Source of the DNA: a virus
Reading direction: 5' to 3' (one strand)
Virus record (IMG/VR): IMGVR_UViG_3300043468_001857
Coordinates: 1 to 36,055 of that record
DNA length: 36,055 nucleotides
Of the stretch, positions 2 to 36,055 are shown one piece after another. Numbering within the stretch: position 1 is the first letter of the stretch; every line of letters starts with the position of its first letter. The notes beneath the pieces were generated by a model, which saw only the letters and a list, made by a program, of their open reading frames with translations, had not been told where the DNA came from and ran no database searches. The translations under genes and the position numbers were made by a program.

Positions 2-82
2 CTGTTTCCAGCTACAAGAAAAATACTACTTTTAGTTGGAATATTTTATGGACTAGGACTTGTCCTTAGTCATTTGAATTAA
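2..82 (+). CDS. 3' end of an unknown gene (partial)
   Basis: An open frame enters from the left edge and ends in TAA after 26 codons. The tail it encodes is hydrophobic (a run of Leu, Val, Ile and Gly) and would fit a C-terminal membrane helix. It ends 64 bp before the FtsK-like gene in the same orientation, so the two may be co-transcribed. Nothing identifies the family, and so short an open frame could be chance. Confidence 0.4.
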   Translation: MFPATRKILLLVGIFYGLGLVLSHLN

Positions 83-18400: not shown

Positions 18401-21400
18401 TATTGATTCAAGTATTTTAGTAATTTGTTCAATTGCTTCTTCAGAATTATTTACAGATATACTATACTCTAAATCATTATCATCAATTAATTCTTGTAAA
18501 TTACTTAAAAGATTTAAAAGTGCTGCCCTAGCATTTTCTGATTCAGGATTAAGTTGTACATTCAATGCTTGCAATTGAATGTTATCCAATACATCACTAA
18601 CAGCGTTTAAAGGATTATTTATTTCTGTAGTAATATTAATTTTTTTATCATTAATTTCTTGAATTTTATTATTTACAAAATTACTAAAATCGTTAACTTT
18701 ATTTTCTGCTGCTTTTAAAGATTCTTCAAAATTTTCATTATTAACATCTAAGTTAGAAATAATATTAAATAATACTGGAACAGATGCACTTGCTTTTAAT
18801 TCATTAATTTTTTGAGTAGCATTTTCTATTGCTTTAATACTAGATGCTAACTCTGTAGTATCAATAGACAAATTATTTTTTAAATTATTTATTTTAACTA
18901 AAATTTCATCAATTCTTAAAATTAAATTTTCATAATCAGAAAAATTAACATCTATATTATATTCTAAATCTAAAATTTGTTTAAGATTGTTTAATATTTT
19001 TGTTAAACTAGCAATTTTTTTATTATTTTCTTCAACAGCATTAGCATTAGCGGTAGCAGTAGCAGTAAAATTAGAAAAGTCACCATCGACAGAAGCAGCA
19101 ATTCTTATATCAGAAAGATCCGCAATAGTTTTTTGAACAAGAGATTTAAAACTTTCTAAATTAGCTATAGAAAGAGTAATTCCTACAGGAGTTTTTTGTA
19201 ATTCAGATTTAAATCTGTTAACTATATCTTGAGATTGCTCTAAAACATCAGCAGAAAGGTATGCTTTAACTTCTACAACTCCAATTAAAGCTAATCCAGC
19301 TAAGCTATTATTGATTTGTTCAATATTTTCAGAATAATTAGATATATCAGATCTAAAGAAAATATTAATTTCTACTGTTTTATTATTATTTAAATTTTCA
19401 ATAGTTTTTGTTAAATCATCAATAGATTGTTTAGTAGAATCTAAGTTTTCTGTATTAATAGGTCTTATATTAAGTGTAATATTTTCCAGCTCTTGTTTTT
19501 TTGCTTTTACAACTTCACATACTTCGTTAATAGCATTAGAAATATTATCTTTATCAATTTCATTAAGATTTATTCTTACAACTAAAGTATTGCTATTTAA
19601 ATATTGTTGAGTCTGTTCTACTTGATTACGTACTTCAGAAGTATTAATTTCTATTGGTTTATTATTAATTTCTGTATTAATTTCATCTATTTTAGATTCG
19701 ATACTATTTTTAAATGTATTTAAAGAATTTAATAAATCAGCACCAATATCTTCTGAAGCATTAATGTTGATGTTTTGAGTTTTACTAGATTGCAGTAATT
19801 CTAAAGAATTTATTACATTATTTATTTGTTCAACAATTTGATTTAAATTTTGACTCTGTGTTGTTATCGAAATTTCTACATCTTTAACTTCAATAAGTTG
19901 ATTTAATAGATTTTTTAAATTATTAATATCTTGAATCAAAGAAGAAGTATTTAATTCATTTATATTAAGATTGATAGAATTATTAGAAAAATATTCAATA
20001 GCATCATTTAGGATATTCTTAACTCCTCCTAACTCAGTAACTAATTTTTGCGCATTAACGTCAAAATCAACAGTAGTTTTTTGATTATCAACTTCGCTAG
20101 ATTGAGTAGGAGTAGCATTTAATGATTTTAATTTAACTTGTATATTTTCTATTGCAGTATCTAATTGAGATATAGCATTTTCGATTGAACTTTGATTTAT
20201 TGATAAAGATATTTCATTATCTAATTTTCCTTTAATTTCATCTAACTTTGTGCTTAAATTATTTATAGAAGTTTGAGCTAAATTACTATCATTAGAAGTG
20301 TCATTTAATGCTGCATTTAATTTATTTATTTCCTCTTCAACTTGAATAATAATATTTCTTAATGAATTTAAGTTATTTGATATATTGTTTATATTTACGT
20401 AAGATTCTTCTGATATATTAAATTGAATTTGTTTTTCTGATAAATTATTTAAAATACCATTTAAATTATTAACAATATCGCTAAAACTATCTTCTAATTC
20501 TTTTAATTTGTTTTTAATATTAGTAACAACAGCTAAATCTGCATTATCTGAAACTTCACTAAAAATAGTAGCAAAACTTGTTTTTATTTCTTGAATATCA
20601 TTTCTTAAAATATTAATAAAATCATTATTTATTTGTATTTGAATAGTTTTATCATTTGTTGAAATAGCTTCATCAAGGTTAAGATTGCTTAAATTATAAA
20701 CAATATTTACTGCGTGAGGATTTTGTTTTATTGCATTTATTCTTTGCTCTATATTTGTTAAATTAGTATCATTTACCTTAATATCTAATATTAAATTATT
20801 AACAATATTAAAAATATTTGTTAAATCTTGTATAAGTTTCTTTACATTAGCCTGCGAATCTGGATTTATTTGTAAAGAAATCGCCGAAGAACTGTAATGC
20901 GCTATTAAATTATTTAGATCGTTTTTTAAGCCTGATAAATTATTTTTTAAATTATTGATATTATCTAAATTTACAACAGGAGTAATTCTACCAGAATCAA
21001 AAGTATTTATTGTTTCCAATAAAACGTTTTCGGCTTTTTCTAAATCATCTTTTATTTCTTCAATATTAGATGAATCAATTAAAACTTTTGCTTCAATTGT
21101 TTTATCTTTGGAACCAGAAGATTGAGATTCTCCTTTTCCTTGGATAATAGCTTTTCCTCCTGTAAAGACTCTTCTTAATCTTTCTATTGATGTATTTATG
21201 CCAGATCTAATAACTGGTCCAAGGTTTTGCGTTATTTGCCCTAATTTACCAAAGCTACTTAAAAGCAAATTAGGAAGTTGATTTAATCCTAGCGAATTTG
21301 CATTTCCTTCTCTATTTTCTTTGCTAGAACGATTAGATGTAGTTTTTTCTTTATTGCGTTCAACAATACTACTAGTAACTTGCGACGTGTTAGATGATTT

Positions 21401-22239: not shown

Positions 22240-23643
22240 TTAAAATTGAAAATAAGGTTTTTTTTCTAATAAACTATTTTGAGCTTTAGCTAGCTCTATA
22301 CCAAGATAAGCAGCATGACTTGCCAATATAGAAGGATTATTGACTAAAATCTTGCTGCAAATTAAATTGCAAGATATGCCAGAGTATTTAGCTATTTCTT
22401 CTCCATCCTTAGTCACGTGAGTTACTAAAATCCTATTGCTATCAACTTCGATAACAAAATTTCCAACAGGATCGTCAAAAACTTTTTGATTAGCAATCCG
22501 CTGGTAATAAGAACAAATAACATCATCAGCAGCAACCCAAGAGTTTTCATATATATGTGCGCTTTCACTAATAATCGTTAAAGAGCCTATTTTAATGTCT
22601 GGGTAAAAATTTTTAATTTGACTAAAAATATAATACTGCAATCGCCTTAGCCCCATGGCATTAGATACCCAAGCAGAAAACATGTCATTACTTCTAAAAA
22701 GTGCTGTTAAGTAAAATTGATTATTATATATTTTTATCCAAATATGATTTAAGCATGGTGGAGATTGAGAAAAAATATCAGTATTAGCATCCCAAAGATT
22801 AATTACTAATCTGTTAGAGATTTGACTTGTTTTAAGCATGTTAATAACATTTTCAATCTGATTAACACCAAAATACTCATTAATCCTAGTTCCATAGCTG
22901 TTGCTGTTATCACCAATGCATAATATTTGCTGCACATATTTATTTATAAACTCTCTGCTTGTCGGTAAATAGTTTGGTTCTGGGAATATTAATTCTTCTG
23001 GCTCTTCTGTAATAATAACAGTAAAATTTAATAATTCTTGCCACAAAATATTGCTTGAACTAATGTCAATTTTACCAAGACTTCTAATTCTATGCAATAT
23101 TTTTACCCAAGCTTCATGAATAAATTTTGATTGTATTCTATGTCCATTTAATTCTCCGGAAACAGTCGAGACAATTGGTTTGTTTTCTGGAAAAATCATT
23201 GGAGAAGCCCATAAATTACAACTTTTACCGCTAAATGATTTAACAGCTTTTACTAAAGAAAAAATATCTTCAAATTTGTATGATTGAACAGAAAATCGTA
23301 AGCAATCAAGAGCATTTTTTGGTATTTCAATATCAATATAAGCTGCATGTTTAGATTCTACTATCCAAGCATTTCTGCCGCCACTAGTCTTTCCTAGCCT
23401 TACTCCATTAGCAAAAAAATCCAATAAGCAATCTATAGAGCCTGAATTTAAATCATATTTACTAGCTTTTAACAAAAATAAATATCTAATATTTGTATTA
23501 GCTAATAAATTACGTATTAACAAATTAATTCCAGGAGTGCATGAATATAATTCTTTTAATACAAAATAATTATTTGCTTCTAAATGTTTAGAGACATTAG
23601 AAGCAATTGTCCATCCTGTTGCTATAGCAATATGATTACTCAT
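22240..23643 (-). CDS. Thymidylate synthase with N-terminal pterin-binding-like domain
   Basis: A 467-residue protein. The C-terminal ~270 residues carry ThyA-family landmarks: YGTRI, SNRLVINLW (the phosphate-binding Arg region), PPC with the catalytic Cys297, RSND, and Asn328 in VSNAMGLRRLQ at the position that in ThyA favours dUMP over dCMP. SAHIYEN follows as in ThyA. The expected reaction is dUMP plus methylene-folate to dTMP. The N-terminal ~170 residues (PGINLLIRNLLANTNIRYLF) resemble the MtrA/DUF4346 pterin-binding domain, which I recall being fused to ThyA in some cyanobacteria and archaea. The start at 23643 is chosen because ATGAGTAA overlaps the stop of the upstream gene by 8 bp, indicating translational coupling; the longer frame to 23799 would run through that gene. 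The tape-measure gene follows after 44 bp. Confidence 0.82.
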   Translation of the reverse strand: MSNHIAIATGWTIASNVSKHLEANNYFVLKELYSCTPGINLLIRNLLANTNIRYLFLLKASKYDLNSGSIDCLLDFFANGVRLGKTSGGRNAWIVESKHAAYIDIEIPKNALDCLRFSVQSYKFEDIFSLVKAVKSFSGKSCNLWASPMIFPENKPIVSTVSGELNGHRIQSKFIHEAWVKILHRIRSLGKIDISSSNILWQELLNFTVIITEEPEELIFPEPNYLPTSREFINKYVQQILCIGDNSNSYGTRINEYFGVNQIENVINMLKTSQISNRLVINLWDANTDIFSQSPPCLNHIWIKIYNNQFYLTALFRSNDMFSAWVSNAMGLRRLQYYIFSQIKNFYPDIKIGSLTIISESAHIYENSWVAADDVICSYYQRIANQKVFDDPVGNFVIEVDSNRILVTHVTKDGEEIAKYSGISCNLICSKILVNNPSILASHAAYLGIELAKAQNSLLEKKPYFQF

Positions 23644-24259
23644 AAGAAACATTATGCAATGGCATGTAGCATCGTGCTTGATTATCTGGTAAATAAGATG
23701 GGCATCTCCAACCCCAATCCTTGACTTTATAATCACACAAAAATATTCGGCTGTCTTTTTGCAAATAAATACAAGGAACAGGACGACTAAGTTTGTCATT
23801 TTTCCATAAATGATAATCGTCGATTAGCTCTTCTACTAACCAGCTTTTAATACCAGAATAAAACATAGTTTTATATTTTCCTAAAAAATGAATATATTCT
23901 AGCAATTCTTCTAATTTTTGCAAATCTGCTCGACAATACCAAGTAATTTGAGATGTTACTCTCCATGGTTTTATAGTACCATTGCCAAGATTATGATTTT
24001 TCTGTAAAAAATAATACGGACTACTAGTTTTATAATACCAACTTGTCTTATCATTAGATAAATACCCAATTTCTAATGGAATATTCTCTTTTATGATTAT
24101 TAGCCCAGCTTTAATTTGTTCCATATCAGGGTTTTGTTTAAGCATTTTAGCATTAAACAAAATTTGATGAGACAAAATTGCGTCAAAGCTAGGATTCCAA
24201 TCATTACTTAATGCGACAGGATTGGATAAAAAGGCAACTATTTTAATGTTAGAAATCAT
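23636..24259 (-). CDS. Cas5/Csf3-like RAMP-fold protein (putative)
   Basis: A 207-residue protein that I match by pattern to the Csf3 (type IV Cas5-like) family found in phages and plasmids. It opens with NPVALSNDWNPSFDAIL, has IPLEIGYL then SWYYKTSSPYYF, and after ITWYCRADLQKLEELLEYI comes LGKYKTMFYSGIKSW (126-140). That last stretch stands where the family has its Gly-rich IGKKRSxGYG loop, here partly degenerated. It then ends RPVPC and WRCPSYLPDNQARCYMP. No Csf1, Csf2, DinG or CRISPR array is in the window, so a CRISPR effector role is not supported here. It is the first gene of the minus-strand run and is coupled to the thymidylate synthase. Its start lies 8 bp from the divergent lipase start, with no Shine-Dalgarno sequence seen. 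Confidence 0.6.
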   Translation of the reverse strand: MISNIKIVAFLSNPVALSNDWNPSFDAILSHQILFNAKMLKQNPDMEQIKAGLIIIKENIPLEIGYLSNDKTSWYYKTSSPYYFLQKNHNLGNGTIKPWRVTSQITWYCRADLQKLEELLEYIHFLGKYKTMFYSGIKSWLVEELIDDYHLWKNDKLSRPVPCIYLQKDSRIFLCDYKVKDWGWRCPSYLPDNQARCYMPLHNVSYE

Positions 24260-27585: not shown

Positions 27586-27726
27586 ATGAACGACTACTTT
27601 GAGTACATGCTTCAGAACGAGATGGAGAGAATTGAATCTATAGCGGATGCTATAGAAGCTGACTCAGCGGAAGTTGAGCAGTTGCCAGAAGTTGAGATTA
27701 ACTGGGAAACAATGGAGAATTTTTAG
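27586..27726 (+). CDS. 46-residue acidic protein
   Basis: A short gene with strong expression signals: GAGAGAGG lies 6 bp before the ATG and a consensus promoter sits upstream. The product is rich in Glu and Asp (for example ADSAEVEQLPEVEIN) and should be helical. Its stop TAG is one base from the next ATG, and GGAG inside its last codons serves as the next gene's Shine-Dalgarno sequence, so the two form an operon. The family is unknown; the acidity would suit an inhibitor or antitoxin-like partner, but this is a guess. Confidence 0.65.
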   Translation: MNDYFEYMLQNEMERIESIADAIEADSAEVEQLPEVEINWETMENF

Positions 27727-28024: not shown

Positions 28025-28033
28025 ATAAATCAC

Positions 28034-28053
28034 AACCTCCCCTTGGGGAGGTT
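28034..28053 (+). terminator. Strong hairpin whose 3' arm is a Shine-Dalgarno sequence
   Basis: AACCTCCCC, loop TT, GGGGAGGTT: a perfect 9-bp stem 9 bp after the previous stop. It may terminate transcription, but the following sequence TATTAATG is not a T-tract. The 3' arm GGGGAGG is placed ideally as the ribosome-binding site of the ATG at 28059, so the hairpin would hide it. Confidence 0.7.
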
Positions 28054-28058
28054 TATTA

Positions 28059-28211
28059 ATGCCAAAGATGTTTAGACTTGACAAAGCATTAAAACTAGCA
28101 AAAAGATTTAAATACACAAATAATACTAAATCGCTTGGAAATTTCGCCAGGGAGAAGATTGATGAGTTGTTTGTCATTTTGCAAAAAACAAGGGGCTTAG
28201 AATTGATTTAA
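28059..28211 (+). CDS. 50-residue basic protein
   Basis: A small gene starting with ATG 8 bp after GGGGAGG. The product is rich in Lys and Arg (KALKLAKRFKYTNNTKS) and ends in a second helix (REKIDELFVILQKTRG). Its Shine-Dalgarno sequence is the 3' arm of the hairpin at 28034-28053, so translation is probably conditional. The family is unknown. It could be a small DNA- or RNA-binding protein, given its charge. Confidence 0.55.
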   Translation: MPKMFRLDKALKLAKRFKYTNNTKSLGNFAREKIDELFVILQKTRGLELI

Positions 28212-28262
28212 AAAGGAGTTTTAGAACAGAGTAGAACAGATTAACTAACATTTTTGATAAAA

Positions 28263-28328
28263 AGTGAGAAAAGTTGATTTCGGGAAAGTAAGAAAGTTGA
28301 TTTCGGAGAGTGAAGAAAGTTGATCTCG
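28263..28328 (+). repeat. Three iteron-like 23-bp direct repeats
   Basis: Copies at 28263, 28287 and 28309 share AGTxxxGAAAGTTGATTTCGG, the third with GATCTCG. The GTTGAT cores lie at 28273, 28296 and 28319, exactly 23 bp apart (about two helical turns). The segment between genes at 28212-28347 otherwise holds only AT-rich sequence. Such spacing is typical of iterons at plasmid origins or of operator arrays. Confidence 0.75.
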
Positions 28329-28347
28329 AATCTATATACAGATATCA

Positions 28348-28542
28348 ATGCAAAGAAAAAAAATAAATATAAGAGAAAAGTCTTATTTGACAAGAGTTAG
28401 AGAATTTTGGGGAGGTGTACAAGAGTCCGGAAACAAAGAATTCTTCTCTGGTAAAAATCTTAGTCTTTCGGAAGATGGGACAATCCGTCTTGAACGAAAG
28501 ATTATCCCGCGCTGCGACTTGTCAAGTAGTGTTGGTGATTAG
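28348..28542 (+). CDS. Possible 64-residue protein
   Basis: An ATG-initiated frame right after the iteron-like repeats. The product begins with a basic segment (MQRKKINIREKSYLTRVRE) and is otherwise featureless. No Shine-Dalgarno sequence is visible, so it is either leaderless or not a gene. A 6-bp hairpin follows 10 bp after the stop. Confidence 0.35.
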   Translation: MQRKKINIREKSYLTRVREFWGGVQESGNKEFFSGKNLSLSEDGTIRLERKIIPRCDLSSSVGD

Positions 28543-28552
28543 ATAAAAAATA

Positions 28553-28568
28553 GTCTCTGGGGAGAGAC
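28553..28568 (+). terminator. Weak hairpin after the 64-residue frame
   Basis: GTCTCT, loop GGGG, AGAGAC, followed by a mixed AATTGATT rather than a T-tract. From here to 28724 (about 150 bp) I see no gene; a possible weak promoter (TTGTTC, 17 bp, CATAAT) ends at 28703. Confidence 0.4.
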
Positions 28569-28724
28569 AATTGATTAAGCCGTGAGAAATTGTTTTATTG
28601 ATAAATCTACCAGCAAAGTCTATGAAGCCGGTTAATGGCTAAAATAAATGGCAATCAGATAATAAAGATTGTTCTTGTTCTTTGTTTATATCTGTGCCAT
28701 AATCTTGTTTAAGTGATGTTGTTG

Positions 28725-29117
28725 TTAAACACCGCCAGCGGCAAAGTTGACGGTGTTTTGTTTTATCACTCCATCTGGTGGAGTTGCCCATTGGTTCAAT
28801 CTTTCTTTCGCCCATTGGTTGGGTTTCTCCAAAGACTGACAATAAGCACTATTAGACAATTGTGGTGCTTTGTCAATTCGTGTTGTTGGATATTCATACT
28901 TTTCCAACAACTGATTTAACCATGGCAAATCTACCGCCATAGCAATCAACTCAGCCTTGCCAAATAGCAGCTTTAATTTCTTTTTGAGTTGCTTGTCAGC
29001 TAACTCAAAGTCTTCCTGTTCTAAATGGTGTCCGAACTGAATCCAGTTATTGTTTAACTGGACAAATACCGTAGATCTGTTATTGGTTGGGCTTTTTGCG
29101 ATTAGACAATTATACAT
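28725..29117 (-). CDS. 130-residue protein, unknown function
   Basis: A protein starting at an ATG with TAGGAG 10 bp upstream. The N-terminal half alternates polar and hydrophobic residues (STVFVQLNNNWIQFG) then becomes helical and charged (LADKQLKKKLKLLFGKAELIA). The C-terminal part holds a short internal repeat, NQWAKERLNQWA, and ends in a Gly-rich tail. No family is recognised. The gene is divergent from the PLD-like gene and shares a symmetric promoter region with it; a HIP1 site (29156-29163) lies between them. The base composition is less AT-rich than the phage core, so a host origin is possible. Confidence 0.6.
   Translation of the reverse strand: MYNCLIAKSPTNNRSTVFVQLNNNWIQFGHHLEQEDFELADKQLKKKLKLLFGKAELIAMAVDLPWLNQLLEKYEYPTTRIDKAPQLSNSAYCQSLEKPNQWAKERLNQWATPPDGVIKQNTVNFAAGGV
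28727..28763 (+). terminator. Terminator-like hairpin with plus-strand T-tract
   Basis: AAACACCG pairs with CGGTGTTT (28751-28758) around a 16-base loop and is followed by TTGTTTTAT on the plus strand. It overlaps the 3' end of the minus-strand 130-residue gene and would end plus-strand transcripts arriving from 28.7 kb. Confidence 0.5.
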
Positions 29118-29133
29118 TTTTTTTTAGCTCCTA

Positions 29134-29206
29134 TATTTCTATTTTACCAAAAAATGCGATCGCATAATATACTTTGCAATATTTGCATTATGGTAAAATA
29201 TTGTAA
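29134..29206. promoter_or_regulatory. Symmetric divergent extended -10 promoters
   Basis: TGGTAAAAT occurs on the plus strand at 29191-29199 and on the minus strand at 29149-29141. Each is a TGnTAAAAT extended -10 box, followed in both directions by GATAGAAATAT or TAGAAATAT and then TTTAGGAG or TAGGAG. The two genes therefore share nearly identical leaders and are likely to be co-regulated. A HIP1 site sits between the two boxes. Confidence 0.6.
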
Positions 29207-29239
29207 GATAGAAATATCAATGAATTTAGGAGTAACATT

Positions 29240-30409
29240 ATGGGCAGATTGATATCTAGCTCTGGATTACCACAACATTTAATTCCAGATTATTTTAGTG
29301 ACATCCAATCTCAATGGATTGCAAAAGTAGAAGATGTAAAATGTGCGTCTGTAATAGGTGCGTTTGCTTATCTTACACATGACAAATTTATAAACGCATT
29401 GATTAAAAAGAACGTAGGTATTGTTCTTTCTGATTCTGCTTATAATCGCAGAATAATAACTAGACGTATAAAGATAGGAGATTGTTTTTTTCCGGACGAG
29501 GAATACAAAGGAATTTGTAAATCAGACTTAAAAGGAATATCAGAAAAAAGCAAGGATATTCTTGATAAAACCACCAACGTCGAAGGCGTGGCTTTTAGAT
29601 TTATTTTAAAAAGTCAAATAAGAAAGGATGGGGATGTTGACAATACTTATGCTCAGCCCACATTACATGCCAAAATGCTGGGACTTGTAGACAAAAATGG
29701 TATTGTTTACGAATGGCTTGTTGGGGGACATAATCCAACATTAAACGGAGATGATTCAATAGACTGTTTTACCTCTATTACAGATCTGGAGGAAATAGAT
29801 AAATTTACAGATTATTGGGTTTATCTGTGGATTGAATCTAAAATACTTGATAGAGATAAATCGCCAGGGCTAATGGAAGCAATTAATTATAAAGGTAAAG
29901 ATAAAGATACTGTTATGTCACAGTCTTGGCAAAACGCCTTTATAACAAAAAGCGTTTATACAGAAAAGCCTAAGAATAATTCTAATGATTATTTTTTTGC
30001 TAGTTTTTACTCGACAGATGTTTGTGAGTATCTCAGAGAAGTGTCTACCAGACTTTATGTCACAAGAATTAGTCATGATTTTAATATTCCTATTGGGTTA
30101 AGAGAAGAATTTCTTTTAGAATTTAGCAGAGAACATTCTATTAAATTTAGTGTAAAAGCCTTTTTCCCTATATCTACAAAATATGATAATACTCTTGTGT
30201 TTGTCACAAAAACCAGAAACGGAGTGTATCTTCATAATTTACTAAAAGACCATTTCTTTAAATGGTTAGATCGTCATCCAAGATATAAAAATCATGATTT
30301 AGAGATATTGAGCAAAGATAAAGATGCGGATGAGTCTAGCCGGACTCGATATCTTGAGGAACAAATCAAACAATTACAGGAAATGGTTCAATCTTTGCAA
30401 CACAAATAA
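29240..30409 (+). CDS. Phospholipase D-like domain protein
   Basis: A 389-residue protein with one PLD/HKD-type motif: TLHAKMLGLVD with His143 and Lys145, followed by WLVGGHNPT, which fits the small-residue/Asn strand after HxK in the PLD superfamily. The region before it (SVIGAFAYLTHDKFINALIKKNVGIVL) also fits the PLD-like fold. A second HxK is not obvious, so an active enzyme would need dimerisation, as in single-motif PLD nucleases. In the motif Asp follows one residue later than in the classical HxKx4D. The C-terminal ~25 residues form a coiled coil (RYLEEQIKQLQEMVQSLQ). TTTAGGAG precedes the ATG and a terminator follows. A nuclease or defence role is plausible but not shown. Confidence 0.65.
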   Translation: MGRLISSSGLPQHLIPDYFSDIQSQWIAKVEDVKCASVIGAFAYLTHDKFINALIKKNVGIVLSDSAYNRRIITRRIKIGDCFFPDEEYKGICKSDLKGISEKSKDILDKTTNVEGVAFRFILKSQIRKDGDVDNTYAQPTLHAKMLGLVDKNGIVYEWLVGGHNPTLNGDDSIDCFTSITDLEEIDKFTDYWVYLWIESKILDRDKSPGLMEAINYKGKDKDTVMSQSWQNAFITKSVYTEKPKNNSNDYFFASFYSTDVCEYLREVSTRLYVTRISHDFNIPIGLREEFLLEFSREHSIKFSVKAFFPISTKYDNTLVFVTKTRNGVYLHNLLKDHFFKWLDRHPRYKNHDLEILSKDKDADESSRTRYLEEQIKQLQEMVQSLQHK

Positions 30410-30413
30410 TTTG

Positions 30414-30441
30414 AAAGGATTGCAAATACATGCAATCCTTT
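30414..30441 (+). terminator. Terminator of the PLD-like gene
   Basis: AAAGGATTGCA, loop AATACA, TGCAATCCTTT: a perfect 11-bp stem starting just after the stop. A second, weaker AT-rich dyad (ATTGTAACAAT) with TTTTT follows within 40 bp. Confidence 0.75.
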
Positions 30442-30499
30442 GTGTTAATTATTGTAACAATTAATTTTTGGCAACATTATTTTTAGTTACTTAAAATAT

Positions 30500-31036
30500 A
30501 TGCAACTTAAAGTTTTAAATTCTAATAGATGGTCTAAAGAAGAATGCAGAAAAAAGTACATAGAAGATATTTCTGTGTCTTTAAAAGCCATTTCTATTTT
30601 ATCTGGTGTTCCTAAGCCCACCCTTGAGAAATGGTCTAAAGAAGGCAATTGGGTTTCTGATAAAAAAGAATATCACAAGGACCCTAATACTAATAATAAA
30701 ACTAATCAAGAATTATCTGATATTGCAACTAATAATTATAAAGTTCATTATCAATTACTTGCTTATGCTGCCAAGATTGTTCAATACAAAATAGCTGATC
30801 TCGCTAGGGTTGATTCTATGTCCCCTGACGAACGCATGGAATACATTAAATTAGAACACGATCCTCACGAGATGGATGCATGGTCTCGTATCATCTTTCG
30901 CGCTACTGAAGCTATCTCTAAAGTCACTGGTCTTCAATATTATTCTGATGTCAATGCCGCTATTAAACGTATTGAAAAAGAAGGTCTTGGTATCGTTGAT
31001 TTGTCTATGATGCAAGACTCTCATGATGAGAATTAA
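30500..31036 (+). CDS. Small-terminase-like HTH protein
   Basis: A 178-residue protein with an N-terminal helix-turn-helix at about residues 26-50: SLKAISILSGVPKPTLEKWSKEGNW. The pattern of a helix, GVP, TLxKW and W before a basic helix is the one seen in many phage small terminase subunits, which recognise the packaging site. The rest is mostly helical (LLAYAAKIVQYKIADLARV; DAWSRIIFRATEAISKVTG), as expected for an oligomerisation part. No large terminase follows; the next 5 kb is the cassette array, so a general phage regulator with this HTH is the alternative. No Shine-Dalgarno sequence is seen before the ATG. Confidence 0.55.
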   Translation: MQLKVLNSNRWSKEECRKKYIEDISVSLKAISILSGVPKPTLEKWSKEGNWVSDKKEYHKDPNTNNKTNQELSDIATNNYKVHYQLLAYAAKIVQYKIADLARVDSMSPDERMEYIKLEHDPHEMDAWSRIIFRATEAISKVTGLQYYSDVNAAIKRIEKEGLGIVDLSMMQDSHDEN

Positions 31037-31070
31037 TCTTTTTTATTGCATATTTACTTAAATAAACTAC

Positions 31071-31123
31071 TTAAAAACCCCTTCAGGGTTGAAGAGTCTG
31101 AAGGGGAAAAACAACTGGAGTAT
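31071..31123 (-). ncRNA. Candidate ~50-nt RNA (promoter straight into terminator)
   Basis: On the minus strand a consensus promoter (see 31130-31158) would start RNA near 31123. Only 16 bases later a terminator begins: CCCCTTCAG, an 11-base loop, CTGAAGGGG (31107-31076), then TTTTT. The product would be a ~50-nt hairpin RNA. An alternative is an attenuator, but no gene lies downstream in this direction apart from the opposing 3' end of the HTH gene. Confidence 0.5.
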
Positions 31124-31129
31124 TCTTTT

Positions 31130-31158
31130 ATATTATCTCCTTTTTCTCTTTCTGTCAA
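31130..31158 (-). promoter_or_regulatory. Sigma-70 promoter of the candidate small RNA
   Basis: On the minus strand, -35 TTGACA (31158-31153), a 17-bp spacer and -10 TAATAT (31135-31130): a near-perfect consensus. Confidence 0.75.
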
Positions 31159-31212
31159 GTAGTTTATATCTTTTTGGGAATTTTTTTCTCGTTGCATGTA
31201 TATATAGCATTG

Positions 31213-31247
31213 CCGTTGGGAAACGGTACATTTGTACCACCCCCCCC
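31213..31247. repeat. Two abutting inverted repeats and a C8 tract
   Basis: CCGTT-GGGA-AACGG (31213-31226) overlaps GGTACA-TT-TGTACC (31225-31238), followed by a run of eight C (31240-31247). It lies at the left border of the cassette array, directly before its first flank repeat. Confidence 0.7.
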
Positions 31248-31271
31248 TAGTCAAGTCTTGACTAAGCGGTT
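31248..31271. repeat. Compact flank repeat at the left end of the cassette array
   Basis: TAGTCAAG-TC-TTGACTAAGCGG: the start motif (TAGTCAAG) and end motif (CTTGACTAAGCGG) that border the longer spacers further right are here joined with almost nothing between. It may be an empty junction or the array boundary. Confidence 0.75.
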
Positions 31272-31278
31272 GTGCCAC

Positions 31279-31302
31279 AAAAAAGACCCCAGGTGGGGCC
31301 TT
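31279..31302 (-). terminator. Terminator of cassette 1
   Basis: On the minus strand GGCCCC, ACCT, GGGGTC and then TTTTTT: a classical intrinsic terminator 6 bp after the gene. The same stem appears in cassette 2. Confidence 0.9.
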
Positions 31303-31307
31303 GGAGG

Positions 31308-31823
31308 TTATAAGCTCCGATAATACGGAGAATTTACTTCCGGTTTATCACTTTCATAAAAATACACCAGGACATCTTGTATCCATGTTACGTATTTAGC
31401 ATTCCCGCCATTACGGAAACTAATTCCGCTAGTACTCGCTTCACCCCCAAGGGTATACCTTCTAAAGTCTTCTATGAAGACATAGTCTTCATCGGTGTCA
31501 GCATCCCATAACTTCGCTTTGCCATTTGCCATAAGCTCATGAATATCATATTCGGACATATGGTAAGCAATAAAATTACTGTTATCCCCAAAATGTCCAC
31601 TAGGAATCGCTTTAGAGCTCTTTAGCTGATCTTCATTATACATGAAGATGGTGTCTTTAATTAGGGCCTCATATTGCACTTCGCCAGTGCAATATGTGTG
31701 CATGATAAATTCAAATTTGCATAAGCGGTCTACTGGAGAGACCCAGTGGATCTCACCGAATTCAATTAGAGCAAAGACCTGACTATCACTCAACGGTACC
31801 GTATATCCTATGAAGTTATCCAT
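31308..31823 (-). CDS. Cassette 1 protein, unknown function
   Basis: A 171-residue acidic protein. I start it at the ATG at 31823, which has GAGAGG 7 bp upstream; the frame can be opened five codons earlier but without a ribosome-binding site. Two copies of the motif shared by the array are visible: YTVPLSDSQVFALIEFGEI near the N-terminus and IAYHMSEYDIHELMANGKA in the middle (aromatic, then Leu/Met, Ser, acidic, then IxxLIxxG). The second half carries many Asp and Glu (DADTDEDYVFIEDF). No known family is recognised. It has its own promoter and terminator and is the cassette nearest to the phage genes. Confidence 0.75.
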   Translation of the reverse strand: MDNFIGYTVPLSDSQVFALIEFGEIHWVSPVDRLCKFEFIMHTYCTGEVQYEALIKDTIFMYNEDQLKSSKAIPSGHFGDNSNFIAYHMSEYDIHELMANGKAKLWDADTDEDYVFIEDFRRYTLGGEASTSGISFRNGGNAKYVTWIQDVLVYFYESDKPEVNSPYYRSL

Positions 31824-31836
31824 ATTTTTGCCTCTC

Positions 31837-31852
31837 AATCAATTTTTTGATT
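31837..31852 (-). promoter_or_regulatory. Leader hairpin of cassette 1
   Basis: AATCAA, loop AAAA, TTGATT in the 5' leader, between the -10 box and the Shine-Dalgarno sequence. It stands where cassettes 3-5 have their GAAA-loop hairpin. Confidence 0.55.
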
Positions 31853-31860
31853 ACATATTT

Positions 31861-31889
31861 ATCCTATTGGAGACCTATTTTTTTGTCAA
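31861..31889 (-). promoter_or_regulatory. Promoter of cassette 1
   Basis: Minus strand: TTGACA (31889-31884), 17 bp, TAGGAT (31866-31861). The spacer (AAAAAATAGGTCTCCAA) is identical in cassette 2. An upstream element, ACTGAACTTTTTTAGGTAT on the plus strand (31911-31929), lies 21 bp above the -35 box and recurs in the other cassettes. Confidence 0.85.
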
Positions 31890-31935
31890 CCTATTTTTTG
31901 AATTTTTTCCACTGAACTTTTTTAGGTATTTTTTT

Positions 31936-32111
31936 ATCCTAGGGCTAGATATCCTAGGGGTAATATCCTAGGGCTAGATATCCTAGGGCTAGATATCCTA
32001 GGGGTAATATCCTAGGGCTAGATATCCTAGGGCTAGATATCCTAGGGGTAATATCCTAGGGCTAGATATCCTAGGGGTAATATCCTAGGGCTAGATATCC
32101 TAGGGCTAGAT
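31936..32111. repeat. 14/15-bp palindromic minisatellite, 12 units
   Basis: Twelve units of two kinds, A = ATCCTAGGGCTAGAT (15 bp) and B = ATCCTAGGGGTAAT (14 bp), in the order ABAABAABABAA, followed by a broken unit (ATCCTATAAG). Each holds the palindrome CCTAGG. Cassette 2 has a single TATCCTAGG at the same place, so the array is probably a local expansion of that seed. Confidence 0.95.
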
Positions 32112-32341
32112 ATCCTATAAGAGTCTGGACTACATCCGACTAAGCGGCACTAGTCAAGTCAACCCCAAAGTGCAACTACGTTTAGCTACATCCGACTAAG
32201 CGCAATTAGTCAAGTCAACCCATTGCAAGGCGTAAATGCTTTTGCGGATGCGAACGTGAGCATAGCCTTTGGTGTGGGTGCATGCGCTCCAGACTTTATA
32301 ATCTATACTCTAATCCGGACTTGACTAAGCGGTTATGCTAT
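32112..32341. repeat. Spacer between cassettes 1 and 2
   Basis: Holds two start-type flank repeats (CTGGACTACATCCGACTAAG then CGGCACTAGTCAAGTCAACC, 32123-32164; a shorter copy at 32184-32220), one GCGCTCCAGACTT unit near 32284, and the end motif AATCCGGACTTGACTAAGCG at 32312. No gene is seen in the 550 bp between the two cassette genes. Confidence 0.85.
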
Positions 32342-32365
32342 AAAAAAGACCCCGGGTGGGGCCTT
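32342..32365 (-). terminator. Terminator of cassette 2
   Basis: Minus strand GGCCCC, ACCC, GGGGTC, TTTTTT; almost identical to the cassette 1 terminator. Confidence 0.9.
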
Positions 32366-32373
32366 GGAGAAGG

Positions 32374-32829
32374 CTAGCAATCCTCCTCTATCAACAATTT
32401 CCAACTAGATTTAAAGAAGAAGTATCTGTATTCTTTTGTGTCCAGATAGAATATATCTTCTCCGTATTCGTTCACCGCTAAAGCGAACTCAGTCAGAGGA
32501 TGATATGTCCCGCTTAAACAGACAGTGTCGTCTAGGTACAAGTCGGAAAGTTCCTCTTCGTCAAGTTCCCACCAATCATTGGTGGGTGGTAGTTCAATCA
32601 TTCTTTTATCTATATCTATCATATCCATAGCGTCTTCATAGTTGGCTTGTCTATACCAATACAAGCGGGAGTAAGCTCCCTCCTGCACTTCACATATAGA
32701 CAGATTGTCTATTTCATAGACATTATCTAGCCTAAGGACATCGTCGGTCTTTTCATGTACGTACGTTTCATACATACATAGTTTAATCAACTCAGCTTCG
32801 TCTAAATGAATCCATTCAATCAATGACAT
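32374..32829 (-). CDS. Cassette 2 protein, unknown function
   Basis: A 151-residue, strongly acidic protein. GGAG lies 6 bp before the ATG. Both copies of the shared motif are clear: EWIHLDEAELIKLCMYE at the N-terminus and DWWELDEEELSDLYLDD in the middle. Each is followed by a stretch of predicted strands (LSICEVQEGAYSRLYWYR; EDIFYLDTKEYRYFFF), so the protein looks like two related modules of about 75 residues. Its C-terminus LLIEEDC is nearly repeated by the partial gene at 36032 (LIEEDYQ). No known family is recognised; an acidic DNA-mimic or protein inhibitor is conceivable. Confidence 0.78.
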   Translation of the reverse strand: MSLIEWIHLDEAELIKLCMYETYVHEKTDDVLRLDNVYEIDNLSICEVQEGAYSRLYWYRQANYEDAMDMIDIDKRMIELPPTNDWWELDEEELSDLYLDDTVCLSGTYHPLTEFALAVNEYGEDIFYLDTKEYRYFFFKSSWKLLIEEDC

Positions 32830-32864
32830 AACCTACTCCATTTGTTTTTTTATTGATTACATTT

Positions 32865-32893
32865 ATCCTATTGGAGACCTATTTTTTTGTCAA
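32865..32893 (-). promoter_or_regulatory. Promoter of cassette 2
   Basis: Minus strand: TTGACA (32893-32888), 17 bp, TAGGAT (32870-32865), identical to cassette 1 across the spacer. The upstream element is at 32915-32933. Confidence 0.85.
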
Positions 32894-32933
32894 CCTATTT
32901 TTTGGATTTTTTCCACTGAACTTTTTTAGGTAT

Positions 32934-33330
32934 TTTTTTATCCTAGGTATATCTTATAGCATATTTTATAAGAGTCTGGACTACATCCGACTAAGCGGCA
33001 CTAGTCAAGTCAATCTCAAAGCCCATGTATACGAAGTCTGGATTGCGTCCGACTAAGCGGCACTAGTCAAGTCAACCCCAAAGTCCATGTATACAAGGTC
33101 TGGATTGCGTCCGACTAAGCGGCACTAGTCAAGACGGCACGGATGCGCTCCAGGACTAGACTTAGTGCGCTCCCTTCAGACTCAGACTCAGTGCGTGCGC
33201 TCCAGACCTAGACTCAGTGCGCTCCCTTCAGACCTAGACTCAGTGCGCGCGCTCCAGACCTAGTGCGTGCGCTCCAGATTTAGTGTATGCGCCAGACTTA
33301 AATCCGGACTTGACTAAGCGGTTTTTGTAT
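32934..33330. repeat. Spacer between cassettes 2 and 3
   Basis: Three flank repeats in tandem begin at 32974, 33036 and 33098, exactly 62 bp apart, each with CCGACTAAGCGGCACTAGTC. Then come about seven GCGCTCC-type units of ~20 bp (33141-33300; consensus GCGCTCCAGACTTAGTGCGT) and the end motif CCGGACTTGACTAAGCGG at 33303. No gene is seen in the ~535 bp between the cassette genes. Confidence 0.9.
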
Positions 33331-33356
33331 AAAAAAGCCAGACCCGGAGGTCTGGT
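33331..33356 (-). terminator. Terminator of cassette 3
   Basis: Minus strand ACCAGACC, TCCG, GGTCTGG, C, TTTTTT. Cassettes 3-6 share this stem, distinct from that of cassettes 1-2. Confidence 0.9.
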
Positions 33357-33364
33357 GAGAAGGG

Positions 33365-33817
33365 TTACAGGAATATGGATGCTATCTCCTCATGAGACAG
33401 AATCCAGTATTGACTACCTTGATACAAAATCCACTGAAGAACGTCATGATGACGTTCTTTTACAAATTGCAATTCGACTAAATTGTCCCAATTTGGGGAT
33501 GTTTCGTCGTCCCCAATTATTTCACGTCCGATTTGCTTTTCCCTGTATGAGAGACAATATGATCGGGTATACGCCCACGCATTATTTATCGCGAAGGCAT
33601 CCTGATCAGTCAATTGTATTTGATGGAAATCCCCCAAATGTTGGTATCCTGCTTGTAAAAACCATTTACGTTTTTTCCAGCAGAATTTCATTCGGGAGAA
33701 TGGGAATTCTCCTAATTTCAATAACTGAGTCATTAACTCTTGTCTCTCAGTTAAAAAATAGAAATCGCGCTCGTGATTGCGATTGTGCGGAAAGGGGTTA
33801 AAAAAAATACTAGCCAT
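33365..33817 (-). CDS. Cassette 3 protein, unknown function
   Basis: A 150-residue protein. The GGAG Shine-Dalgarno sequence stands only 3 bp before this ATG, whereas the other cassettes have 6-8 bp, so either the spacing is damaged or a TTG at 33826 is used. One motif copy is in the middle (HQIQLTDQDAFAINNAWAY), and a second, YWILSHEEIASIFL, is the very C-terminus. In cassettes 1, 2 and 5 a copy stands at the N-terminus, so this protein looks permuted or truncated compared with them. The N-terminal third is basic (RMKFCWKKRKW). No family is recognised. Confidence 0.65.
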   Translation of the reverse strand: MASIFFNPFPHNRNHERDFYFLTERQELMTQLLKLGEFPFSRMKFCWKKRKWFLQAGYQHLGDFHQIQLTDQDAFAINNAWAYTRSYCLSYREKQIGREIIGDDETSPNWDNLVELQFVKERHHDVLQWILYQGSQYWILSHEEIASIFL

Positions 33818-33840
33818 ATACTCCAAGTGTTATTAATTTT

Positions 33841-33854
33841 TGGTTTTTCAACCA
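33841..33854 (-). promoter_or_regulatory. 5'-terminal GAAA-tetraloop hairpin, cassette 3
   Basis: On the minus strand UGGUU-GAAA-AACCA starts 7 bases after the -10 box, so it should be the first structure of the mRNA. It is identical in cassettes 4 and 5 while the genes differ. Confidence 0.7.
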
Positions 33855-33861
33855 TATCTGA

Positions 33862-33890
33862 ATATTAAACCCAAAAAAAATTATTGTCAA
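33862..33890 (-). promoter_or_regulatory. Promoter of cassette 3
   Basis: Minus strand: GTAG-TTGACA (33890-33885), 17 bp, TAATAT (33867-33862). The upstream element is at 33912-33930. Confidence 0.85.
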
Positions 33891-33930
33891 CTACTTTTAT
33901 AGCTATTTTTTACTGAACTTTTTTAGGTAT

Positions 33931-34204
33931 ACTTTAATCTAAGTAACAATATTTTAAGAATCTGGACTACATCCGACTAAGCGGAGTTAGTCAAGACGGC
34001 ATAGCTGCGCTATCAAGACTAGATGATTTTGCGGACATAAACGCGCTCCCTTTAAACTCAGATTTAGTGCGTGCGCTCCAGACTCAATGCGTGCGCTCCC
34101 TTCAGACTCAAACTCAATGCGTGCGCTCCAGATTTAGTGCGTGCGCTCCAGATTTAGTGTATGCGCCAGACTTAAATCCGGACTTGACTAAGCGGTTTTT
34201 GTAT
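33931..34204. repeat. Spacer between cassettes 3 and 4
   Basis: One flank repeat (CTGGACTACATCCGACTAAG, from 33962), several GCGCTCC-type units (34048-34170), and the end motif AATCCGGACTTGACTAAGCG at 34175. No gene in ~420 bp; a plus-strand open frame here only translates the repeat. Confidence 0.88.
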
Positions 34205-34230
34205 AAAAAAACCAGACCCGGAGGTCTGGT
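34205..34230 (-). terminator. Terminator of cassette 4
   Basis: Minus strand ACCAGACC, TCCG, GGTCTGGT, TTTTTT. Confidence 0.9.
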
Positions 34231-34240
34231 AAAAGAAATT

Positions 34241-34714
34241 TTAGTATTCTAGCGCGCGAATGGCATCATGCACTAATGGGTCAACTTTTACCCAGGATGG
34301 GTCCTTAAATAAAAGGACAATTCTGTCAGTTTCAGTTTCTATTGATATAGAAACCTTTTTGCTAGTAATATCAACCGGAATGATCTCGTAACGAGATTGC
34401 TTGTTATAAGCCTTGTGGCCCCAGCCTTGCCAGTCTTCCACATGCCATGAGTAAGTCACTCCGGATGGATTCTCCAAGAGAATATATGCGACTGGCTTTT
34501 TCAACCAGTCCGAATAATTAAGTCTTTTAAGAATAAAAAACTCACCCACATGGTGCAGCTCTGTGTAAGCTGCGTTGTTACTCAACAATACTCTGGCATC
34601 GTCTGCCAGAGTAAATTCTTGATAGTCAAAGCCTTTGGTGAAAGTCCCCTTGGCTTCTTTAGCGGAAAAGCCAGATTCTTGAGAGATTGAAATCAATGGT
34701 AAGTAGTAAGTCAT
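34241..34714 (-). CDS. Cassette 4 protein, unknown function
   Basis: A 157-residue protein. The ATG at 34714 is chosen because GGAG lies 8 bp upstream; the frame stays open 15 codons further but into the leader hairpin. It has one recognisable motif copy, QEFTLADDARVLLSNNAAY, and then mostly predicted strands (EFFILKRL; VAYILLENPSGVTYSWHV; KVSISIETETDRIVLLF). It is the most divergent member and the least acidic. No family is recognised. Promoter, leader hairpin and terminator match those of cassettes 3 and 5. Confidence 0.75.
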   Translation of the reverse strand: MTYYLPLISISQESGFSAKEAKGTFTKGFDYQEFTLADDARVLLSNNAAYTELHHVGEFFILKRLNYSDWLKKPVAYILLENPSGVTYSWHVEDWQGWGHKAYNKQSRYEIIPVDITSKKVSISIETETDRIVLLFKDPSWVKVDPLVHDAIRALEY

Positions 34715-34748
34715 TGTATGAACTCCATGTGTTGTGTGTTGTTTTTTT

Positions 34749-34762
34749 TGGTTTTTCAACCA
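34749..34762 (-). promoter_or_regulatory. 5'-terminal GAAA-tetraloop hairpin, cassette 4
   Basis: UGGUU-GAAA-AACCA on the minus strand, 7 bases after the -10 box; same as cassettes 3 and 5. Confidence 0.7.
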
Positions 34763-34769
34763 TGATTAG

Positions 34770-34798
34770 ATAGTAATCCCAAAAAAAATTATTGTCAA
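34770..34798 (-). promoter_or_regulatory. Promoter of cassette 4
   Basis: Minus strand: GTAG-TTGACA (34798-34793), 17 bp, TACTAT (34775-34770). The upstream element (ACCGAACTTTTTTAGGTAT) is at 34820-34838. Confidence 0.85.
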
Positions 34799-34838
34799 CT
34801 ACTTTTATGATTATTTTTTACCGAACTTTTTTAGGTAT

Positions 34839-35137
34839 AAAATAAATATAAGTATTATTCTAGGTCTGGATATTATATAGATATCCGGGTCAATAACAAA
34901 ATCTGGACTACATTCGACTAAGCGGAATTAGTCAAGTCAACCCTAAAATTCATGTATATAAAATCTGGACTACATCCGACTAAGCAACACTAGTCAAAGC
35001 TATGTATTTATGCTATTAAATAAAAATAACTTTTTATCTGTGGGTGCGAACGCGCTCCCTTCAGACTTAATGTATGCGCTCCAGACTCAATGTATGCGCC
35101 AGACTTAAATCCGGACTTGACTAAGCATTTATTGTAT
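34839..35137. repeat. Spacer between cassettes 4 and 5
   Basis: Two flank repeats at 34902 and 34963 (61 bp apart; the second has decayed to CTAAGCAACACTAGTCAAAG), then a few GCGCTCC/ATGTATGCGC units (35048-35105), and the end motif CCGGACTTGACTAAGC at 35111. No gene in ~460 bp. Confidence 0.85.
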
Positions 35138-35165
35138 AAAAAAACCAGACCTGAAAAGGTCTGGT
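35138..35165 (-). terminator. Terminator of cassette 5
   Basis: Minus strand ACCAGACC, TTTTCA, GGTCTGGT, TTTTTT. Confidence 0.9.
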
Positions 35166-35172
35166 GGGAGGT

Positions 35173-35640
35173 TTAACTGTAAAACTCGTCTAATACCTCC
35201 TCTAGCTGTTCGGAATCAAAGTAGTATCTTACACTCTCGGTATCGAGAGTGTAAGTAAACCAATCGAAAGATTCATAACTTGAGTCAAAGTCACTCAAGT
35301 AATAAACTTCATTTTCAATAAGAAGTCCTTTCTGAATCAAAGTTAGAATATCGACATTGTTCAAATGCTGAAAACCGACGGGACTATCGATATTATTGTC
35401 ATCTGTCTTAATTCTCCGTTGTAAACTCTCCACATCTTGAGAGTTTGCCCAATAGATGATAACATTTACATTATCAATATATACATAGGTGTATATACTG
35501 GCAATTTTTTCCATTCTGCTGAATAAAATGGAAATAGAATTGAACTCCGTTAAATCTATATGTCGATATCTTACAAGTTGGAAGATCTCGATTTCATTTA
35601 GTTGAACCCAGACAATGTTCTTGATAGTCGTGTATTTCAT
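35173..35640 (-). CDS. Cassette 5 protein, unknown function
   Basis: A 155-residue acidic protein with GGAG 6 bp before the ATG. The motif is present twice: VWVQLNEIEIFQLVRYRHI near the N-terminus and GFQHLNNVDILTLIQKGLL in the middle. Each is followed by predicted strands rich in Tyr and Ile (IYTYVYIDNVNVIIYW; WFTYTLDTESVRYYF). The layout matches cassette 2 best, and both end in a run of acidic residues. No known family is recognised. Confidence 0.78.
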   Translation of the reverse strand: MKYTTIKNIVWVQLNEIEIFQLVRYRHIDLTEFNSISILFSRMEKIASIYTYVYIDNVNVIIYWANSQDVESLQRRIKTDDNNIDSPVGFQHLNNVDILTLIQKGLLIENEVYYLSDFDSSYESFDWFTYTLDTESVRYYFDSEQLEEVLDEFYS

Positions 35641-35663
35641 AGCTTACTCCATGTGTTGTTTTT

Positions 35664-35677
35664 TGGTTTTTCAACCA
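35664..35677 (-). promoter_or_regulatory. 5'-terminal GAAA-tetraloop hairpin, cassette 5
   Basis: UGGUU-GAAA-AACCA on the minus strand, 7 bases after the -10 box. Confidence 0.7.
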
Positions 35678-35684
35678 TATTTGA

Positions 35685-35713
35685 ATACTAGTCCCAAAAA
35701 TAAATATTGTCAA
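35685..35713 (-). promoter_or_regulatory. Promoter of cassette 5
   Basis: Minus strand: GTAG-TTGACA (35713-35708), 17 bp, TAGTAT (35690-35685). The upstream element has decayed here (35735-35753). Confidence 0.82.
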
Positions 35714-35753
35714 CTACTTTTATAAGAAATTTCTACTTAATTTTATAAAGTAT

Positions 35754-35996
35754 ATTTTATTTTAAGTACTATGCTAGGTCTGGATATTATATAGTCTGGA
35801 CTACATCCGATTAAGCAATATCAATCAAATCAACGCAACTATGCTATCAGAATTGGGGGATTTTACATACATAAACGCATCCCCTTCAGACTTAATGTGT
35901 GCGCTCCAGACTTAATGTGTGCGCTAGACTTAATGTGTGCGCCAGACTTAGTGTGTGCGCCAGACTTGACCGGACTTGACTAAGCACTTATTGTAT
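35754..35996. repeat. Spacer between cassettes 5 and 6
   Basis: One decayed flank repeat (from 35794), four GCGC-type units with AGACTTAATGTGTGCG (35886-35965), and the end motif CCGGACTTGACTAAGC at 35970. No gene is seen. Confidence 0.82.
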
Positions 35997-36024
35997 GAAA
36001 AAACCAGACCTCAAAAGGTCTGGT
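35997..36024 (-). terminator. Terminator of cassette 6
   Basis: Minus strand ACCAGACC, TTTTGA, GGTCTGGT, TTTTTC. Confidence 0.88.
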
Positions 36025-36031
36025 GGGGGAT

Positions 36032-36055
36032 TTATTGGTAATCCTCCTCTATTAA
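36032..36055 (-). CDS. 3' end of the cassette 6 gene (partial)
   Basis: Only the last codons are in the window, reading LIEEDYQ and stop on the minus strand, directly before a cassette-type terminator. The cassette 2 protein ends LLIEEDC, so this is a sixth member and the array continues beyond the window. Confidence 0.7.
   Translation of the reverse strand, partial: LIEEDYQ

Follow-up and report, generated by a model that had tools for sequence, protein, structure and literature searches.

How do small ORFan genes enter and leave phage genomes? Phage genomes are full of such genes, and the routes of their entry and exit are poorly understood. The question is raised by a locus in the IMG/VR virus record IMGVR_UViG_3300043468_001857, a linear record of 36,055 bases that is here called the window. 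At 31.25-36.06 kb, five full transcription units and one cut unit follow each other head-to-tail on the minus strand. Their switches are alike and their genes are not, which suggests that genes were swapped through ready-made slots, visible here in one contig.

Each full unit comprises, in order, a promoter of the form TTGACA-17 nucleotides (nt)-TANNNT, a leader, one gene of 150-171 amino acids (aa), a terminator and a repeat-bearing spacer. The five complete cassettes and one partial cassette described in a first-pass annotation of this DNA are confirmed by the open reading frames (ORFs), the hairpins and the TTGACA-17 promoters, the latter ahead of all five complete genes. The same annotation took the cassettes for independent transcription units, which agrees with the promoter and terminator that each possesses. 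It assumed a single type of flank; there are two, A in cassettes 1-2 and B in cassettes 3-6. The features of the array are as follows.

31283-31302, minus strand: cassette 1 terminator, type A
31308-31823, minus strand: cassette 1 gene, 171 aa, acidic, isoelectric point (pI) 4.55, flank type A
31861-31889, minus strand: cassette 1 promoter, TTGACA-17-TAGGAT, type A
32346-32365, minus strand: cassette 2 terminator, type A
32374-32829, minus strand: cassette 2 gene, 151 aa, very acidic, net charge -26, pI 4.05, type A, relative of gene 5
32865-32893, minus strand: cassette 2 promoter, identical to promoter 1 from -35 to -10 (29/29)
33338-33355, minus strand: cassette 3 terminator, type B
33365-33817, minus strand: cassette 3 gene, 150 aa, type B
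33862-33890, minus strand: cassette 3 promoter, TTGACA-17-TAATAT, type B
34211-34230, minus strand: cassette 4 terminator, type B; together with its spacer end it matches the 140-nt block of cassette 3 at 94%
34241-34714, minus strand: cassette 4 gene, 157 aa, type B
34770-34798, minus strand: cassette 4 promoter, type B
35144-35165, minus strand: cassette 5 terminator, type B
35173-35640, minus strand: cassette 5 gene, 155 aa, acidic, pI 4.26, type B, relative of gene 2
35685-35713, minus strand: cassette 5 promoter, type B
36003-36055, minus strand: cassette 6, cut by the contig end, type B terminator and last seven codons (LIEEDYQ)
31079-31096, minus strand: extra hairpin and T run between the TerS-like gene and the array, which would halt read-through out of the array

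The terminator hairpins start at 31302, 32365, 33355, 34230, 35165 and 36024 on the minus strand, at intervals of 859-1063 nt, and lie 5-10 nt from the stop codons. Terminator-like sites number 16 in 29000-36055, against 4.4 +/- 2.3 in shuffled sequence. Leaders measure 35-55 nt from the end of the -10 to the ATG, which is preceded by GGAG in four of the five genes and by GAGAGG in gene 1. The strict pattern TTGACA-16..18-TANNNT occurs 12 times in the window, five times ahead of array genes. Against the promoters speaks that scanning the whole region for them gives 24 sites where 23.2 are expected by chance; the five of the array are credible because of their position and mutual similarity.

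Pairwise identities, set against a shuffled-sequence control, separate the flanks from the genes. Coding DNA is 51-55% identical against 51-54% when shuffled, and is no more alike than shuffled sequence in 10/10 pairs, whereas terminators are 63-92% identical against 47-50% in 15/15 pairs. Promoter regions share 86% in the A pair and 72-80% in the three B pairs; between types the range is 52-65% (six pairs), with pair 1-4 no better than shuffled. The earlier claim that the non-coding parts are more alike than the proteins therefore stands for terminators and, within a type, for promoters, whereas spacers compared whole show no more than a modest likeness (39-65% identity in 10 pairs, against 38-52% when shuffled), their common part consisting of repeated motifs. 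Promoter and terminator types travel together (AA, AA, BB, BB, BB, with a B terminator in cassette 6). When cassettes 1 and 2 are anchored at the -35, they agree at 55/60 positions upstream, 29/29 from -35 to -10 and 14/30 downstream. The B-type match extends past the promoter into a conserved leader segment (21-26/30 bases), where ATGGTTGAAAAACCAAAAA directly follows the -10 (33842-33857, 34750-34765 and 35665-35680, minus strand) and could possibly be a leaderless short ORF or a 5' hairpin. One such hairpin, GGUUGAAAAACC, was discarded as no stronger than shuffles, of which 29, 37 and 58 of 200 fold as well. In cassettes 3 and 4, the 94% identical terminator-spacer block of 140 nt lies around unrelated genes.

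The proteins give a different picture. Among ten pairs, 2-5 alone exceeds shuffles (score 79, 0/500), with 19% identity over 156 columns and a BLASTP E of about 1e-6 in the five-protein set. The other nine pairs are equalled by 53 to 447 of 500 shuffles, 53 for pair 3-4 and 323 for pair 1-2 despite its 29/29 promoter identity, and with profiles built on genes 2 and 5, genes 1, 3 and 4 score no higher than shuffles. The end of gene 6, LIEEDYQ, resembles LIEEDC of gene 2 with 16/18 nt equal, where none of 6,864 control 18-mers, taken in frame from the tape-measure ORF of the window and from four cassette genes, has more than 13/18; by eye it is also similar to the end of gene 5. To call the genes independent, as first proposed, is thus slightly off: nine protein pairs show no detectable kinship, but 2 and 5 are distant relatives and the gene 6 tail resembles that of gene 2. 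One family (2, 5 and perhaps 6) appears to span both flank types, and both types also carry genes that are not detectably related. Because this family crosses flank types, genes and flanks have probably recombined, and the crossing is the main evidence for exchange within the window. A motif or internal duplication common to all five proteins had been suspected by eye and was rejected: when N and C halves were compared, protein 2 was equalled by 14/1000 shuffles and the remaining four proteins by 99-376 of 1000, and profile tests were negative for 1, 3 and 4.

These data also bear on a simpler history, in which one gene family was tandemly duplicated and driven apart by strong diversifying selection while gene conversion homogenised the flanks, with no genes from outside. 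The kinship of genes 2 and 5, the gene 6 tail, the common size of 150-171 aa, the similar G+C content at third codon positions (GC3) and the aromatic content of 14-17% in all five proteins fit such a family, and the nine unrelated pairs and the missed profiles for 1, 3 and 4 do not. It would need five saturated coding regions beside promoters that stayed 94-99% identical, in two separate places. Plain duplication and divergence does not yield such near-identical non-coding DNA beside saturated coding DNA, and we regard the single-family history as unlikely.

On balance we think it probable that the array is a locus resembling the promoter early stem-loops (PeSLs) of T4-type phages, reportedly described by Arbiol in 2010 and by Comeau in 2014, in which recombination between conserved regulatory blocks would exchange autonomous ORFan genes. 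With similar, moderate confidence it is read as a hyperplastic accessory locus whose slots would each be self-contained, with a host sigma-70-like promoter, a small ORFan gene and a terminator. The promoter and terminator-spacer blocks would act as homology patches for phage or host recombination, so that genes could be gained, lost or swapped between slots or co-infecting phages with the neighbours undisturbed, as proposed for T4-type PeSLs. Recombination between flank repeats, already put forward in the first-pass annotation, is supported as the likely mechanism.

The spacers are rich in repeats. GACTAAGC is present in 14 copies, all on the plus strand at 31260-35978; the first 31.2 kb contain none, and nowhere in the window does its reverse complement occur. 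There are eight copies of TAGTCAAG and six of its inverse CTTGACTA, nine copies across the spacers of a 47-nt unit beginning with TCTGGACTACATCCGACTAAGCGGCACTAGTCAAGTC, tandem repeats of 15, 18, 20, 26 and 62 nt, and five exact copies of the spacer end motif CCGGACTTGACTAAGC. These elements are arranged as follows.

31247-31269, plus strand: outer boundary of the array, TAGTCAAG abutting its inverse CTTGACTA with no spacer between
31935-32117, unstranded: 12.5 tandem copies of a 15-nt repeat (TATCCTAGGGCTAGA), upstream of promoter 1
32124-32333, unstranded: spacer 1-2, two 47-nt dyad units and the end motif CCGGACTTGACTAAGCGG
32973-33320, unstranded: spacer 2-3, 62-nt repeat (2.6 copies), then 26- and 20-nt repeats of the GTGCGCTCCAGAC type
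33961-34194, unstranded: spacer 3-4
34902-35126, unstranded: spacer 4-5
35795-35985, unstranded: spacer 5-6

The spacer motifs may be substrates of recombination or operators. In the first case, site-specific recombination would act in an integron-like manner on GACTAAGC and TAGTCAAG half-sites through an unseen recombinase. The single orientation of the 14 GACTAAGC copies, all inside the array, and the inverted motifs that abut at its outer boundary speak for such a system, as does the dyad in the nine 47-nt units, where the pairing of GACTA with TAGTC holds in 97.8% of cells and one change affects both sides. That change is reached in 51/500 shuffles, which makes the dyad weak as a structured element; the identity between cassettes includes the promoters and exceeds what a core site explains. 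Scans of window proteins with Pfam and PHROGs showed no integrase; the proteins scanned cover part of the ORFs of an incomplete contig and leave out one of 6256 aa. No attC site was shown either, in the same incomplete contig and with no search aimed at attC. We consider site-specific recombination quite improbable, and think just as little of its more elaborate form, a dedicated cyanophage exchange system in which a phage recombinase would recognise GACTAAGC/TAGTCAAG and counter-defence genes would be loaded at the spacers, as an integron counterpart with autonomous cassettes. Integrons do share with the array head-to-tail single-gene units and common non-coding ends. Integron cassettes are as a rule promoterless, whereas those of the array have terminators and, in five of five complete cases, a promoter-like site of their own. 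For this reason, and with no recombinase among the proteins scanned, the likeness to integrons drawn in the first-pass annotation is not upheld.

In the second case, a phage regulator would bind the dyads and switch the cassettes jointly, and the conservation of the flanks would be regulatory only. A dyad unit does lie upstream of 5/5 promoters, and there is a model in SPbeta, where MrpR binds SPBRE elements in promoters according to the parts of the source consulted (PMC10516654). Joint regulation leaves unexplained the identity past the terminators and the kinship that crosses flank types, and at promoter 1 the distance to the unit exceeds 200 nt and takes in a tandem repeat of 183 nt. We judge it very improbable.

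Where the genes of the favoured exchange might come from is indicated by their composition. GC3 is 0.38-0.44 in the five array genes against 0.11-0.29 in 13 of 15 other ORFs of the window, which suggests that the array genes come from, or circulate in, a gene pool other than that of the structural genome. Three of the five proteins are strongly acidic (pI 4.55, 4.05 and 4.26; the other two 6.14 and 5.71), a property that would suit DNA mimics or inhibitors of RNA polymerase or nucleases. Given the host-like promoters, the cassette genes are probably expressed early and would act on the host, in takeover or in counter-defence; an anti-defence role is possible. None of the five proteins has a match at E below 0.05 among curated profiles (Pfam, PHROGs, PADLOC, NCBIfam). 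The best tblastn values for proteins 1-5 against the phage collection are E 4-9, which is not credible, and that of protein 2 against plasmids is E 2; proteins 1, 2 and 4 have no match in IMG/VR. Predicted structures (mean pLDDT 46.2 for gene 5 with gene 2, and 31.8 for gene 1) were too poor for use.

The rest of the window identifies the carrier. Positions 1-31,017 are syntenic, in reversed orientation, with IMG/VR contig 3300046777_002580 (56.6 kb; G001), in which the counterpart of the TerS-like gene (window 30500-31036) is 80% identical. The label TerS-like comes from PHROG matches that are weak (E 3e-4 to a DNA-binding protein and E 0.018 to a terminase small subunit), and a scan of GTDB contigs found no relatives of the protein. 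The TerL of G001 recurs at 99% in five further IMG/VR contigs, and its portal is 71.4% identical to those of the Cylindrospermopsis phages Cr-LKS4 and CrV-01T, the sole matches in the phage collection (two records); the TerS-like protein shares 26% with its counterparts there. By these comparisons the contig is a phage and a distant relative of Cr-LKS4 and CrV-01T. The window has two GCGATCGC sites, a motif typical of cyanobacteria, and the host is probably a filamentous freshwater cyanobacterium. Rfam gave no match in the window or in the G001 stretch L006, and no tRNA was found in four loci scanned. A position of the array between TerS and TerL was considered and dropped, as replication genes precede TerL in the related phage contig G002. 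Beyond its TerS-like gene, G001 has a TTGACA-17-TAATAT promoter followed by a small ORF and a terminator-like hairpin, the latter two by eye (L006, 8541-8780), on the strand opposite to that of the array in the window.

An assembly artefact or chimera, with a phage contig joined to unrelated repetitive DNA, would account for the presence of the array on a single contig, for the ends of the window contig and of G001 near the same place and for the deviating GC3. Six genes that are all different are not a product of assembly duplication, however, and by phage codon usage the own frame is the best of six in 5/5 array genes (above all 300 shuffles in only 2/5). Repeats commonly break assemblies, as in the repeat regions of Campylobacter phages in the portion of that report consulted (PMC4546147). 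We hold an artefact to be extremely improbable.

The array itself was sought elsewhere. Exact matches to CCGGACTTGACTAAGC and to the promoter pattern numbered 0 in IMG/VR, as did matches to the DNA pattern of spacer end plus terminator in GTDB contigs; blastn of the array against phages and plasmids gave no match, and the cassette proteins had none in G001. Protein 2 was not found in five kin contigs, where an empty result is weak. A single 16-mer match to CTACATCCGACTAAGC sits in an unrelated phage and was set aside as chance. The search of other genomes for spacer motifs that the first-pass annotation had recommended thus returned nothing, and the array stays on its single contig, an outcome that goes part of the way towards the refutation which that annotation had named.

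The related phages appear to follow the same principle with other sequences, a conserved terminator-promoter block standing ahead of unrelated genes. In both Cr-LKS4 and CrV-01T the ERF gene is followed by a shared terminator and by a block that runs up to TTGACA (90% identical over 79 nt); the gene that comes next is g91 in Cr-LKS4 but gp085 in CrV-01T. Cr-LKS4 has the block a second time, ahead of g89 (83% over 100 nt). The gene g91 is identical in both phages (53/53), and its CrV-01T copy lies elsewhere with a promoter stretch of its own; gp085 has no match in the part of Cr-LKS4 examined (55-101 kb). The gaps g80-g81, g81-g82 and g82-g83 also have a block of 34-60 nt in common, between small genes. 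Both genomes also have long inverted repeats, that of Cr-LKS4 being perfect, 10.7 kb long and at the record end, within the stretch 70000-101125 (L026). The gene order of CrV-01T shows a duplication similar to this inverted repeat.

Several observations weigh against exchange through the flanks. The array is on one contig only, and no second genome with these flanks was found in the searches made, so exchange at the array locus itself is not seen; G001 stops 441 nt beyond its TerS-like gene, with no array visible there. Rearrangement in the kin may stem from their inverted repeats, and the g83-g85 insertion, which includes a transposase, has only one of its two breakpoints in a block. Two other ORFs deviate in GC3, that at 28725 cassette-like (0.41) and that at 27674 higher still (0.59), and one of 14 other window proteins, ParB-like, is equally acidic (pI 4.45).

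Other features of the window and its kin were recorded. A 6256-aa ORF (3425-22195, minus strand) looks tail tape-measure-like by its ends, by eye only; annotated tape-measure genes of the kin vary widely in length (2987 aa in Cr-LKS4, 4416 aa in CrV-01T). A lone type IV Cas5/Csf3-like protein (23636-24259, minus strand; PADLOC E 8e-25) overlaps a gene with thymidylate synthase and pterin-binding DUF4346 domains (22240-23754, minus strand). In G002, adjacent ORFs at 6911-7534 and 7527-8930 have starts similar by eye to the Cas5/Csf3-like and DUF4346 genes, and csf2, cas11, csf1, a PAPS-reductase-like gene and csf3 form a type IV-like CRISPR-Cas set (L027 10491-14194, minus strand). Window 28027-28578 is 94% identical to G001 between flanks at about 70-81%, with neighbours of high GC3 at 27674 and 28725; it has no Rfam match at the gathering threshold and no plasmid match.

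How, then, does the array compare with known systems? In T4-type phages, PeSLs are described, in the parts of the report consulted, as promoter-plus-terminator blocks between genes of unknown function, with gene shuffling proposed (PMC4503421). The array has the same composite of conserved terminator stem-loop and promoter between small ORFs. It differs in that its phage is not T4-type (the portal of the syntenic G001 shares 71% with its Cylindrospermopsis phage counterparts, and no T4-type genes were seen), in that promoter and terminator types follow the gene and not the intergenic block, and in the long repeat-bearing spacers that part terminator from promoter. The array thus appears to work like PeSLs without belonging to them by lineage. 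Conserved promoter-bearing intergenic elements are also found in tailed viruses of haloarchaea: those of HGTV-1 have been likened to PeSLs (PMC3950731), and intergenic repeats of HF2 were shown to be promoters, with genomic positions kept within the genus (PMC8707807); the portions of these reports consulted describe no matched promoter-terminator sets like A and B. In group II Campylobacter phages (CP21, CP220), unique genes are enclosed by intergenic repeats that disrupt assembly and are considered to drive the shuffling of modules; by the same partial reading these repeats part modules of 28-55 kb instead of single-gene cassettes (PMC4546147). The ORFanage of S-PM2 is, like the array, a block of ORFans in a cyanophage and can be lost; it has few PeSL-like elements, and a PeSL mechanism was judged unlikely in the pages consulted (PMC4503421). 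Aphanizomenon phage CL131, in the section seen, has 21 sigma-70-like promoters without the TTGACA/TATAAT consensus (PMC6293099), which differ from the TTGACA-type promoters of the array.

In the literature on phages of filamentous cyanobacteria that was covered, which takes in few subscription journals, no comparable array is described. Shuffling of this kind has a precedent in T4-type phages; what is new here is the phage lineage, together with the sequences and the GACTAAGC repeats that run one way only. Should exchange be confirmed, the flanks could serve as bait for more genes of this pool in metagenomes of blooms, and many of those genes may counter cyanobacterial defences. The PeSL principle would then reach cyanophages with long tails, beyond the T4-type phages and the one archaeal virus.

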